NCBI GenBank assembly: GCA_903642235.1
Contig: CAHJWL010000001.1
Span: 372,001 to 436,000, forward strand
Source of the DNA: Acidobacteriaceae bacterium
Lineage (GTDB): Bacteria; Acidobacteriota; Terriglobia; Terriglobales; Acidobacteriaceae
DNA length: 64,000 nt
Reading direction: 5' to 3'
In this document: piece by piece, positions 42,780 through 52,012 of the stretch
Position numbering within the stretch: position 1 is the first letter of the stretch
Layout of the letters: each line of letters starts with the position of its first letter
Position numbers and translations under genes: made by a program
The notes under the pieces: model-generated
What the model was told of the DNA's origin: nothing
The model's database searches: none
The model's input: only the letters and a program-made list of their open reading frames with translations

Positions 42780-44300
42780 ATGCGATGGACAGACCTGCTG
42801 CGCGAGATGGCGACGACCCGGATTGGCGGCGAGATCGAGGCCGAGGTCAGCGGAGTTCAGTATGACTCGCGCCGCGTAGAGGATGGCGATCTCTTCATCG
42901 CGATGCGGGGCGAGAGCGCCGATGGCAACCGATATGTCGAGCGGGCGCTGCAGGCGGGTGCGAGTGCGATTGCAATGGATTCAATCGAGACCTATGAACG
43001 CTTGAAAGCGGCGGGTCTTGAGGTCGGGTTGGCCCATGTGGCGAATGGGCGGAGAGCTTTGAGTGAAGCAAGCGCGGCGATCTTCGGGCATCCGGAGCGT
43101 GCCTTAACGCTGAGCGCAGTGACCGGGACGAACGGAAAGACCACGACGGCTTGGCTGCTGGAGCAGATCTTGCGAAGTGCGGGACGAAAGAGTGTGCTGG
43201 TGGGGACGATTGAGACGCATGTGGCGGGTGCGGTGCGAGAGAGCCCGCATACCACGCCGGAGTCGCGCGATCTGCTTCGAACCTTCGCGGATGGCGTCGC
43301 GCTTGGGTGTACGGAGGCGGTCATCGAAGCGAGCAGTCATGCGCTCGAGCAGGAACGAGTGTGGGGGATGCCGGTCGATGTGGCGATCTGGACAAACCTG
43401 ACGCAGGATCATCTGGACTACCACCGGACGATGGAGGCGTACTTTCTCGCAAAGGCGAAGTTATTCATGGGTCTGGGGACGCGGGTGCCGCGTGTGGCGG
43501 TGGTCAATGCGGATGACGCGTACGGAGCGAGAGTAGCGGAGCTGGCACAGACATCCGGCAGTAAAGTGTGGCGGTACGGCATGGGCGTTAAGGGCGGCTT
43601 CGGACCGGAGTTCCGAGCGGAGCGCGTGAACTTACGTGCAGGAGAGACGACATTCGAGTTCAGGACGAGCTTCGGCATGGTGCCCATGCGCTCGCCGCTC
43701 ACGGGAGCAGTGAACGTGTACAACCTGCTTGCTGCTGCCTGTGCGGCGCTGGCCAGAGGCGTGCGTCTTGAGGAGATTGCGTCGGCAACGGAGCGACTGG
43801 CGCAGGTTCCCGGGCGATTTGAAGTCGTACCCTCGCCACGTAAAGCCATCTTCGTGGCGGTGGACTATGCGCATACAGAGCATGCGCTGCGAACTCTGAC
43901 TGCGCTTGCACGGGAGCTGGTGCGTCCTCTGGATGGACGGGTCATCACCGTGTTCGGGTGCGGCGGAGACCGGGATCGAACGAAGCGGCCGAAGATGGGA
44001 CGGGCGGCTGGCGAGGGTAGCGATCTGGTCGTGGTGACGAGTGATAATCCGCGGACGGAAGCACCGCGGAGGATCATCGAAGAGGTGATGGAAGGGGTGC
44101 AGGAGACGCCGGCAGACGTGGTGGTGGAGGAGGATCGCGCAGGCGCGATTGCGATCGCCATCCGAGCGGCGCGGCCGGGTGATGTGGTTCTGATCGCCGG
44201 GAAAGGACACGAAAAGGTACAGATCTTTGTCGATGAGGTGGTGCCCTTCGATGATGTGCTGGTAGCGAACGATGTGCTGCGGGAGCTTGAGGGCGAATGA
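42780..44300 (+). CDS. murE: UDP-MurNAc-tripeptide synthetase MurE
   Basis: MurE adds the third amino acid to UDP-MurNAc-L-Ala-D-Glu. The ATP loop GTNGKTTT is at residues 116-123, and the DNPR motif at 422-425 is the known marker of meso-diaminopimelate specificity, so the wall should be mDAP type. The 506-residue length is normal. Its TGA (44298-44300) overlaps the ATG of the first micro-ORF of the repeat ladder. It lies about 176 bp after ftsI. Confidence 0.96.
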   Translation: MRWTDLLREMATTRIGGEIEAEVSGVQYDSRRVEDGDLFIAMRGESADGNRYVERALQAGASAIAMDSIETYERLKAAGLEVGLAHVANGRRALSEASAAIFGHPERALTLSAVTGTNGKTTTAWLLEQILRSAGRKSVLVGTIETHVAGAVRESPHTTPESRDLLRTFADGVALGCTEAVIEASSHALEQERVWGMPVDVAIWTNLTQDHLDYHRTMEAYFLAKAKLFMGLGTRVPRVAVVNADDAYGARVAELAQTSGSKVWRYGMGVKGGFGPEFRAERVNLRAGETTFEFRTSFGMVPMRSPLTGAVNVYNLLAAACAALARGVRLEEIASATERLAQVPGRFEVVPSPRKAIFVAVDYAHTEHALRTLTALARELVRPLDGRVITVFGCGGDRDRTKRPKMGRAAGEGSDLVVVTSDNPRTEAPRRIIEEVMEGVQETPADVVVEEDRAGAIAIAIRAARPGDVVLIAGKGHEKVQIFVDEVVPFDDVLVANDVLRELEGE

Positions 44301-44353
44301 AGTTGAGAGCAGGATGTGTGGCGGAGCGGTGGTCTAGAAGGGACGACGGATGA
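44297..44353 (+). CDS. Micro-ORF A of the murF ladder (18 residues)
   Basis: Encodes MKLRAGCVAERWSRRDDG. Its ATG overlaps the murE TGA as ATGA, and its TGA overlaps the next ATG at 44350. Most diverged copy. Translation is likely by coupling but unproven. Confidence 0.4.
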   Translation: MKLRAGCVAERWSRRDDG

Positions 44354-44406
44354 AGCTGACACTGGGGCATGTGGCGGAGCACTGGTCTAGAAGGGACGAC
44401 TCATGA
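44350..44406 (+). CDS. Micro-ORF B of the murF ladder (18 residues)
   Basis: Encodes MKLTLGHVAEHWSRRDDS, whose first six residues equal those of MurF. AAGGGA lies 6 bases before the ATG. The stop overlaps the ATG at 44403. Confidence 0.4.
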   Translation: MKLTLGHVAEHWSRRDDS

Positions 44407-44459
44407 AGCTGACACTGGGGCATGTGGCGGAGCACTGGTTGGGAAGAGGCGACTCATGA
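44403..44459 (+). CDS. Micro-ORF C of the murF ladder (18 residues)
   Basis: Encodes MKLTLGHVAEHWLGRGDS. AAGGGA lies upstream of its ATG. The stop overlaps the ATG at 44456. Same coupling pattern as its neighbours. Confidence 0.4.
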   Translation: MKLTLGHVAEHWLGRGDS

Positions 44460-44512
44460 AGCTGACACTGGGGCATGTGGCGGAGCACTGGTTGGGAAGA
44501 GGAGACTCATGA
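44456..44512 (+). CDS. Micro-ORF D of the murF ladder (18 residues)
   Basis: Encodes MKLTLGHVAEHWLGRGDS again. Its final codons contain GAGGAG, the ribosome site for murF, and its TGA overlaps the murF ATG at 44509. Confidence 0.4.
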   Translation: MKLTLGHVAEHWLGRGDS

Positions 44513-45894
44513 AGCTGACACTGGGGCAGATCGCGGATTGGATTCATGCCGAAGGAGACTTCACGACGCGGCTCGAGGCTGTAGGCTACTCGATCGACTC
44601 GCGCACGATCAGCGCGGGGGAGTTGTTCTTTGCCGTTACGGGTGAGCGCGTGGATGGCCATGCGTATGTCGAGGCGGCGCTTGCGAACGGGGCGGTCGGA
44701 GTTGTTGTAAGCCAGCGCTGGCTGGTGCCGGATGAACTGGAACCGTGCCGGGTGTTGCGGGTTCCGGAGAGTGAGGATTGTGTGCTGCAGGCGATGCAGA
44801 CGCTGGCGAGACGGGTGCGGGAGGAGTGGGGCGGGCGCGTGATTGGGATAACCGGATCAGCGGGCAAGACGACAACGAAGGAGATGGTGGCGGCGGTGCT
44901 GGCGGCGAGGTTCAAGGTGCTCAAGAGTGAGGGCAATCTCAATAATCATTTCGGGATGCCGCTGCAGCTTCTGAAGCTCGAGCCGGAGCATCAGGTGGCG
45001 GTGCTTGAGATGGGCATGAATCATGCGGGCGAACTGCGGGTGCTTGCGGAGATCGCACGGCCGGACTGGGCGGTGGTGACGAACGTTGCGGCGGTGCACC
45101 TGGAGTATTTTCCGGACGGAATTGCGGGCATCGCGGCGGCCAAGCGGGAGCTGGTGGAGGCTCTCCCAGCCGGGGGCGTTGCGGTGTTGAATGGAGAGGA
45201 TGCGCGGGTACGGGAGTTTGGTCGCGAGCTCGATGTGAAGACTGTGCTATACGGCGAGACTCCCGATGCGGCAGTTCGCGCGGAGAGCGTGGAAGAGTTG
45301 GGTGTGGATGGACTCACCTTTGCTGCGGTGGTCGCTGCGAGCGATGAACGCGCGGAGGTGCGGCTGCATCTGCTGGGACGGCAGAATGTAGCCAACGCCC
45401 TCGCGGCGATTGCGGTTGGCTCTGAGAGCGGGATCCCGCTCGGGGAGTGCGCGCGCTCGCTCGGTGCAATGCGTGCCGCGGAGAAGCGCGGACAGGTGCT
45501 GGCGTGGCACGGAGCGAAGATCGTGAACGACTCGTACAACTCGAATCCGCGGGCGCTCGATGCGATGGTGGATGCGCTGCTGACGATGACAGCGGCGCGG
45601 CGGATTGTGGTGGCGGGCGAGATGCTGGAGTTGGGAGCCGAGGGTGGAACGCTGCATGAAAGCTGTGGCGTGCGGATGGCAGAGCTGGGCGTGGACGTGG
45701 TGATCGGGGTACGAGGGTTGGCGCAGCGGATTGTGGATGGGGCTGCCGGCGGTGGGGCAGAGGCAATGTTTTTCTCAACGCCGGAGCAGGCAGCAAGCTG
45801 GATGCGGGAGCATGTGCGCGCGGAGGATGCAATCCTAGTCAAGGGATCGCGCGGGGTAGGACTGGAGCGGGCGCTGGCGGCGCTGGGGGAGTAG
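44509..45894 (+). CDS. murF: UDP-MurNAc-tripeptide-D-Ala-D-Ala ligase MurF
   Basis: MurF attaches D-Ala-D-Ala to complete the UDP-MurNAc-pentapeptide. The ATP loop ITGSAGKTTTKEM is near residues 118-130, with LNNHFGMPLQLLKL and GMNHAGELRVLAEIARP following, standard for MurF. ATG 44509 gives 461 residues; the frame is open to 44422 but that part lies inside the tandem repeats. It starts inside micro-ORF D as ATGA, so its translation probably depends on the ladder. Confidence 0.96.
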   Translation: MKLTLGQIADWIHAEGDFTTRLEAVGYSIDSRTISAGELFFAVTGERVDGHAYVEAALANGAVGVVVSQRWLVPDELEPCRVLRVPESEDCVLQAMQTLARRVREEWGGRVIGITGSAGKTTTKEMVAAVLAARFKVLKSEGNLNNHFGMPLQLLKLEPEHQVAVLEMGMNHAGELRVLAEIARPDWAVVTNVAAVHLEYFPDGIAGIAAAKRELVEALPAGGVAVLNGEDARVREFGRELDVKTVLYGETPDAAVRAESVEELGVDGLTFAAVVAASDERAEVRLHLLGRQNVANALAAIAVGSESGIPLGECARSLGAMRAAEKRGQVLAWHGAKIVNDSYNSNPRALDAMVDALLTMTAARRIVVAGEMLELGAEGGTLHESCGVRMAELGVDVVIGVRGLAQRIVDGAAGGGAEAMFFSTPEQAASWMREHVRAEDAILVKGSRGVGLERALAALGE

Positions 45895-50917: not shown

Positions 50918-52012
50918 CTAGCGATGACCGCCACCGCCATGGGAGCCGCCGCCAAACCCACCACCGGTATGACTGCCGCCTCCGCTGAAGCCGCCACCGC
51001 TGTGGCTTCCTCCACCAAAGCTGCCGCCGCCCGTCTGTGCGCGGCCCTGGCCGGAGAAGCCGCCGGCGCGTGCGGGGACACTCTGACTTCCGCCGCGTTC
51101 CATTCCGCCGTAGGCAGGGCTGCCGCCGGGGATGCCGCGCTGGCCGCCGTTATAGGCCTGACCGCCGCCGTAGCTCTGACCGCCGTTGCTGTAGCCGCGA
51201 CCGCCACCGTAGCTCTGACCGCCGTTGCTGTAGCCGCGACCGTTGGTGTAGCCATGCTGGCCACCGGTGGACGACTCGCCTCCGGGATAGCCTCGCTGCG
51301 CACCGTTATAGCTCTGGGTGGATCCATTGCCGCCGGCAAAGCCTCTCTGGCCGCCGTTGAAGCCACCCGCACCGGAGAGTCCACGCGCGCCGTTGTAGTT
51401 ATTGATGGTGGTCCGGTTTCCGTTGTTGAAGCTGCCACCGTAGCCACGACCGCCGATGTTTGAACCGCGAAAGCCCTCATAGCCACCTCCGCGAGCGTAG
51501 CTGAACCCGCCGGGATGGACCGGAGCACCACCCCATGGGCGGTTGTAGACGTTGTTGAAGCGGCCGCCGAAGCCGCCGAAGTTGTTATAGCCGCGGTTGT
51601 ACCAGAAGCGACCGCCGTTCCAGTAGCCGCCGTAGAAGCCGGTGCCGAAGTAGCCGAAGCCGTAGTTGATGCCGCCGTAGTAGCCGATGCTGTTGCCCCA
51701 GTAGCCGGCGTTCCAGAAGTAATTGCTGCCACCGTAGCCCCAGTAGCCGGGTGTCCAGAGAGCGCCCTGGTAGGGCGGAAGAACCCAGGCGCCATCGACC
51801 CAGTAGTACCCTTCATCGCCGTAGGCCCAATAGCCGGGTGTCCAGATGTACCCGTCACCGGGGATCTCCGGTTGAACATAGACCGGGATCTCAGGGGGCG
51901 CTATGCCGATCGAAACGAAGACGCGCGCATGCGCGGCGGCGGGTGCGACAAGCATGGCTCCTGAGAGGAGCGCTGTGCTGACGACAGAACGTACGGTTCG
52001 CGTGATCTGCAT
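50918..52012 (-). CDS. Exported glycine-rich WxxGxW repeat protein
   Basis: A 364-residue protein with signal peptide (VVSTALLSGAMLVAPAAAHA). Residues 40-110 contain repeated WTPGYW-type units (IWTPGYWAYGDEGYYWVDGAWVLPPYQGALWTPGYWGYG) of the YxWGxW/WxxGxW repeat family. From about 110 on it is Gly/Tyr/Asn/Ser-rich with short repeats, for example GYSNGGQSYGGG twice. Likely a surface or matrix protein. It is transcribed against murG and murC, a single reversed gene inside the dcw cluster. Confidence 0.85.
   Translation of the reverse strand: MQITRTVRSVVSTALLSGAMLVAPAAAHARVFVSIGIAPPEIPVYVQPEIPGDGYIWTPGYWAYGDEGYYWVDGAWVLPPYQGALWTPGYWGYGGSNYFWNAGYWGNSIGYYGGINYGFGYFGTGFYGGYWNGGRFWYNRGYNNFGGFGGRFNNVYNRPWGGAPVHPGGFSYARGGGYEGFRGSNIGGRGYGGSFNNGNRTTINNYNGARGLSGAGGFNGGQRGFAGGNGSTQSYNGAQRGYPGGESSTGGQHGYTNGRGYSNGGQSYGGGRGYSNGGQSYGGGQAYNGGQRGIPGGSPAYGGMERGGSQSVPARAGGFSGQGRAQTGGGSFGGGSHSGGGFSGGGSHTGGGFGGGSHGGGGHR

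Follow-up and report, generated by a model that had tools for sequence, protein, structure and literature searches.

A tandemly amplified murF start between murE and murF in an Acidobacteriaceae genome, a candidate relay that would preserve coupling

Adjacent genes of an operon can be joined by a 4-nt ATGA overlap, and in the Acidobacteriaceae genome considered here such overlaps recur in series between murE and murF, each one ending an 18-codon micro-ORF and opening the next reading frame. This raises the question of how a chain of this kind came to lie at a coupled junction, and whether murF would still be coupled to murE across it. Here we examine the junction within the window, by which we mean the whole 64-kb stretch of DNA analysed, and compare it with the rest of the genome (3.79 Mb in 29 contigs, completeness 99.87%), with relatives, and with described systems of short coupled ORFs.

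Table 1. Features of the murE–murF junction (positions in the window; SD, Shine-Dalgarno)
Feature	Position	Strand	Remark
murE	42780..44300	+	NCBIfam NF001126 and TIGR01085 above cut-off
murE TGA stop	44298-44300	+	overlaps micro-ORF 1 ATG
Micro-ORF 1, MKLRAGCVAERWSRRDDG (stop)	44297..44353	+	most diverged unit
Micro-ORF 2, MKLTLGHVAEHWSRRDDS (stop)	44350..44406	+	
Micro-ORF 3, MKLTLGHVAEHWLGRGDS (stop)	44403..44459	+	
Micro-ORF 4, MKLTLGHVAEHWLGRGDS (stop)	44456..44512	+	stop overlaps murF ATG
murF, MKLTLGQIADWIHAEGDF...	44509..45894	+	TIGR01143 above cut-off
Tandem array, 4.0 copies x 53 bp	44317..44528	+	33-nt spacer + 20 nt = murF start
SD-like AAGGGA before micro-ORF 2 ATG (44350)	44338..44343	+	−5.0 kcal/mol, best nearby segment
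SD-like AAGGGA before micro-ORF 3 ATG (44403)	44391..44396	+	−5.0 kcal/mol
SD-like AAGAGG before micro-ORF 4 ATG (44456)	44444..44449	+	−6.2 kcal/mol
SD GAGGAG before murF ATG	44499..44504	+	−9.1 kcal/mol, strongest of five

A periodic chain of start sites

Read directly from the sequence, ATGA occurs at 44297, 44350, 44403, 44456 and 44509, at a constant spacing of 53 bp, and the stop of each of the four micro-ORFs overlaps the next ATGA. The NTGA stop/start overlap that characterizes gene pairs coupled at −4 nt is thus present at five of five junctions, from the murE stop through the murF start, which lie 208 nt apart. The first-pass annotation had described four 53-bp units with chained ATGA between the two genes, which is exact to the base, and an unbroken coupling chain, which the five junctions bear out. 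It had further held that coupling would be kept at any copy number; this is true, but it is a consequence of the period and not independent evidence, since 53 is 2 mod 3, so that a frame opened at one ATG runs into TGA at the second base of the following ATGA. Such a length would be expected in one of three random duplications. What makes the locus odd is that a start site has been amplified, and not the arithmetic by which coupling is kept.

We compared the chain with chance by counting series of ATG-started micro-ORFs of 8–60 codons that end in an ATGA overlap. With ATG starts only and both strands read, the window contains no chain of four other than the murE–murF array. Among 20 Markov-shuffled versions of the 64 kb, each read on one strand, there were 13 chains of three and none of four, and no ATG chain above two was found on either strand of 749,587 bases from other loci, some of which overlap each other. 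When GTG and TTG were also allowed, chains of four to five appeared elsewhere in the window and of four to seven in the shuffles, so that the notable part is that the chain is all-ATG and periodic. An all-ATG chain of four is beyond chance.

Tandem Repeats Finder reports a single array at the junction (44317–44528, period 53, 4.0 copies, 91% matches), so the tandem copies of one unit that characterize variable-number tandem repeats are present here. (Elsewhere in the window, at 51140–51253, there are overlapping tandem repeats of 18, 21 and 39 bp.) In the phase reported, each copy is made up of 33 nt of spacer and, after it, the 20 nt with which the next start begins. This 20-nt block is invariant across the four copies, the last of which is the murF start itself; the earlier statement that the last three copies repeat the first 20 bases of murF is matched by 20/20 identity in units 2–4. 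The units as a whole differ from one another at up to 18 sites: units 1 and 2 at 12 of 53, units 3 and 4 at a single site that leaves the encoded peptide identical. Micro-ORF 1 sits where most genus relatives start murF, and its first 10 nt, ATGAAGTTGA, are the murF start in 8/55 of them.

Is this pattern of variation one of selection? Variable columns number 10 in the spacer and none in the 20-nt block (p = 0.009, or p = 0.09 if adjacent changes count once), and the joint probability of retaining four open, chained frames without selection was 0.11 in a simulation without indels. The evidence for selection on the units is weak.

Relatives and the source of the repeated unit

In most genus relatives the junction into which the array was inserted is a 4-nt overlap. 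Of the 61 other genus genomes searched, 59 yielded a murF locus, one had only a weak Mur-ligase match, and one had none. Among these 59 murF loci, murE and murF overlap by 4 nt in 44, overlap otherwise in two, and are separated by at least 15 nt in 10; in three, murE was not found next to murF. A family sample of 66 further loci, drawn from the better of the matches listed (365 of 398 genomes matched), has a 4-nt overlap in 46, another overlap in four, a gap of at least 15 nt in 10, a gap below 15 nt in three, and murE not found alongside in three. Among individual loci, L018 and L034 (the latter from Granulicella aggregans) have murF without an adjoining murE, and what lies upstream in L018 resembles, by eye, the terminal part of a short-chain dehydrogenase gene; the murF match in L006 contains one in-frame TGA.

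None of the 125 genus and family loci carries, within 400 nt upstream of murF, a copy of its own murF head beyond chance. That scan yielded one 15/20 match (L194) against a chance expectation of 0.5–2, while the window's own locus, used as control, gave three 20/20 matches; a scan of the same 125 loci for the spacer yielded one 22/33 match, 332 nt upstream in L151. A search with the unit DNA, in which the best two candidates per genome were scored, matched 61 relatives among the 398 family genomes, each at one place, the murF start. Within the genome itself the same kind of search returned eight matches at E up to 10, the three strong ones all in the array and the other five only 14–17 nt long (E 0.98 to 3.4), and all four matches to the unit as a pattern with three mismatches lie inside the array. 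An exact 36-nt stretch of the unit was not found in viral contigs. Since the unit is confined to the array in its own genome, apart from the 14–17 nt matches, and absent upstream of murF in the relatives examined, the simplest reading is that the array arose locally, in this lineage, by amplification at what had been an ATGA overlap.

Other junctions also hold inserted sequence. At 22 distinct junctions elsewhere with gaps of at least 15 nt, an ORF bridges murE and murF in six and none does in 16. Three of the bridging ORFs are long (59, 136 and 153 aa, in L072, L143 and L198, respectively), and the short ones could be due to chance. These ORFs hint at a preference at murE–murF for insertions that preserve coupling, although 16 of the 22 do without. 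The 59-aa ORF, from a Terriglobia genome (L072:1864-2043), has ATGA overlaps at both ends and contains, by eye, two similar stretches of about 26 residues; considered as a possible element of the mycobacterial interspersed kind discussed below, it was rejected, with one full copy in its genome and other matches that are short, at E of 0.02 or weaker. The 136- and 153-aa ORFs each overlap the murE stop by 4 nt; at the murF start the overlap is 1 nt and 4 nt, respectively.

While the 20-nt block is plainly that of murF, the spacer could in principle derive from either neighbour. The units had been taken to be duplicated murF starts on the grounds of the shared 20 nt and a likeness of their peptides to the MurF N-terminus. 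The first ground stands, with identity in units 2–4 and a point of insertion that is a 4-nt overlap in 44/59 genus loci; the second stands weakly for codons 7–18 (p 0.006–0.056), and as gapped DNA the spacer is also weakly similar to the murE tails of relatives (p 0.003–0.057). We compared two models, under which the spacer is murF nt 21–53 or the tail of murE; both were tested many times, and the p values that follow are uncorrected.

Under the murF model, ungapped DNA comparison gave p values for units 1–4 of 0.10, 0.13, 0.03 and 0.02 against the genome's own murF, and of 0.07, 0.06, 0.035 and 0.045 against 158 relatives. Peptide residues 7–18 gave 0.11, 0.08, 0.02 and 0.02 ungapped, and 0.038, 0.056, 0.006 and 0.014 in a gapped, anchored alignment. 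Unit 4 and murF also have AGGAGACT in common in exact register, part of which is the SD. Against this model are local gapped DNA comparisons with relatives (p 0.23–0.74, although own murF with unit 4 gave p 0.025), anchored gapped DNA (p 0.07–0.18) and gapped peptide (p 0.07–0.26) comparisons, and the register itself, the predicted one being best for none of the four units in the genus set and for unit 1 only in the ungapped test. The murE model is favoured by local gapped DNA comparison with relatives (p 0.025–0.04) and by anchored gapped DNA (p 0.003, 0.003, 0.057 and 0.003; on repetition 0.008, 0.004, 0.042 and 0.006), also with the SD part held fixed (p 0.010–0.060), and units 1 and 4, the two compared with 21 control windows, scored above all of them. 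It is opposed by ungapped DNA (p 0.21–0.49) and peptide (p 0.07–0.17) comparisons, and no similarity to the genome's own murE tail was found (p 0.32–0.76).

Judged on these comparisons, neither model wins. Under the first, an SD-like stretch inside murF (codons 15–17) would have been turned into the SD of the following copy, and an SD-like 4-mer does occur at murF nt 40–52 in 42/55 genus murF starts as a raw count; under the second, the SD and stop would derive from murE. Under either model, the repeated piece is the whole coupling module.

Relay, passenger and other readings

We consider it probable, with a good deal of room for doubt, that the tandemly amplified murF start is a passenger which is tolerated, preserves coupling and acts as a relay. 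The ancestral junction would have been the 4-nt overlap usual in the genus, and a piece comprising an SD-like stretch, the ATGA overlap and the opening codons of murF would have been duplicated and then amplified to four 53-bp units. If the length of the first duplication was by accident 2 mod 3, each copy would have become an 18-codon ORF, and later amplification would have kept the chain automatically. Ribosomes ending murE may then reinitiate at 44297 and at every following ATGA, such that murF would stay coupled to murE across the 208 nt through repeated termination and reinitiation; in addition, ribosomes could enter murF directly at the strong SD of the last unit.

The distance itself bears on this reading. 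In E. coli, a distance of 38 nt lowered reinitiation by 80–90% in two gene pairs and eliminated it in another (PMC10666635); because reinitiation there is so strongly distance dependent, a bare spacer of 208 nt should uncouple murF, an outcome that the chain averts on paper. In a synthetic operon cited in PMC6728339, upstream translation could also increase expression of the gene downstream over 50 nt through other mechanisms, so that a chain of micro-ORFs is not the sole way to keep some coupling.

An SD-like motif upstream of the overlap, as found in −4 nt coupled pairs, is present at all five sites, with energies from −5.0 to −9.1 kcal/mol (−6.6 kcal/mol at micro-ORF 1) computed with the general 16S tail in place of the genome's own. 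The murF SD falls within the range of 56 relatives (mean −8.4, range −11.3 to −5.3), and the two inner SDs at −5.0 are weaker than the murF SD of any of them. The weakness of the inner SDs suits direct entry at murF and argues against a relay, as does the predicted pairing of the inner ATGs at 44403 and 44456. As a whole, the array RNA has low stability relative to shuffled sequences: 197/200 of these fold at least as well, as would suit an open stretch. A structured RNA was considered and rejected on the same grounds, Rfam giving two sub-threshold matches with eukaryotic names, and no promoter or terminator was found by consensus at 44000–44800.

The main rival to a relay is an inert passenger, in which slippage duplicated the start site without effect, MurF is made by direct entry at its own SD, and the micro-ORFs before it see little translation. 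With a strong SD at murF only (−9.1 against −5.0 to −6.6, and in line with relatives) and weak evidence for selection, this is a serious rival, and we regard it as possible, if on the unlikely side. Retention of the chain is compatible with drift at the simulated probability given above, and some relatives have uncoupled junctions. Against it, every unit keeps an open frame, an ATGA and an SD-like stretch despite the divergence among units, and any ribosome that finishes murE would in any event run into the first ATGA.

A more active role at this essential cell-wall gene, in which the MurE:MurF ratio would depend on how many units there are in a self-made, slippage-adjustable relay, now of four micro-ORFs, strikes us as doubtful. 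We are no more inclined, and if anything a shade less, to see the array as an evolvable rheostat in which slippage alters the repeat number and so sets MurF output, the tuning idea of the first-pass annotation. The last amplification looks recent, units 3 and 4 being one base apart, and the period keeps coupling at any copy number; on the other side, the array is known from one strain only, and the nearest full-length MurF among the genomes searched is 68–69% identical.

Could the unit instead have arrived from elsewhere? A 2025 review describes mycobacterial MIRUs (mycobacterial interspersed repetitive units) as apparently mobile short repeats with start codons as insertion sites, in which coupling of an inner ORF at −4 nt probably minimizes the effect of insertion (PMC12548453), and tandem MIRUs of 77 and 53 bp, both 2 mod 3, lie between senX3 and regX3 (PMC4213456). 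The architecture is the same, a short ORF at −4 nt from the downstream gene within short repeats between two operon genes. The differences are that MIRUs are interspersed and appear mobile, whereas the murE–murF unit occupies one locus in its own genome, where searches outside the array gave only the 14–17 nt matches and no three-mismatch pattern match, and that this unit carries the downstream gene's own start, its first 20 nt being those of the genome's own murF. Matches in the family likewise fall at murF starts only. Insertion of a mobile coupled micro-ORF element at the murF start is already disfavoured, and we think it very improbable.

An assembly artefact, with the array or its copy number wrong, is about as improbable: the assembly is in 29 contigs and tandem arrays are typical sites of wrong copy numbers, but it is nearly complete, and the differences that distinguish units 1, 2 and 3/4 call for at least three distinct units. 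Least credible is a function of the product, which would be either a 490-aa MurF extended at its N-terminus, with the in-frame ATG 44422 as start, or an active peptide of 18 aa. The open frame 44422–45894 exists and units 3 and 4 specify the same peptide, but the murF start of genus relatives is equivalent to 44509, and units 1 and 2 encode peptides different from that of the other two.

Known systems and significance

The amplified start can be set beside several described arrangements. Overlapping ATGA pairs preceded by an SD are a standard device (PMC6728339), and the array resembles them in having the ATGA overlap at all five junctions with an SD before it; it differs in that the studied pairs are directly overlapping protein genes, whereas here four micro-ORFs lie in series between the two. 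The logic of a short ORF upstream of a target gene is shared with bicistronic designs, in which a short ORF with an internal ribosome binding site by its stop boosts the target gene (PMC13255528). Short ORFs are also used to deliver ribosomes (PMC12548453), and leader genes near structural genes have been proposed to do so in many phyla including Acidobacteria (PMC4833913). Bicistronic designs have one leader ORF, unlike the natural murE–murF array with its four in series. The short ORF mgtQ similarly lies between two operon genes, mgtC and mgtB, and affects translation of the second; it is described as acting through alternative stem-loops and ribosome-destabilizing residues (PMC8092293), unlike the array, whose RNA is not unusually stable.

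With MIRUs and built upstream short ORFs on record, the first-pass claim that no system of this kind had been described is not right, MIRUs being short ORFs coupled at −4 nt (PMC12548453) that occur in tandem at senX3–regX3 (PMC4213456). In the literature searched, no description came up of a chain built by duplicating a gene's own start. The murE–murF array is a home-made version of a known arrangement, and its local origin is what differs.

If the relay is used, the junction would provide a natural test of how many termination-reinitiation events a ribosome can perform in succession and of the cost of each, where the cited studies measure single reinitiation steps between two genes. It also points to a simple local route to a MIRU-like chain, namely the duplication of a coupled start by a length that is 2 mod 3. 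If the array is only a passenger, it remains an example of an essential operon that bears an additional 208 bp at a coupled junction and yet, on paper, has not lost the coupling.
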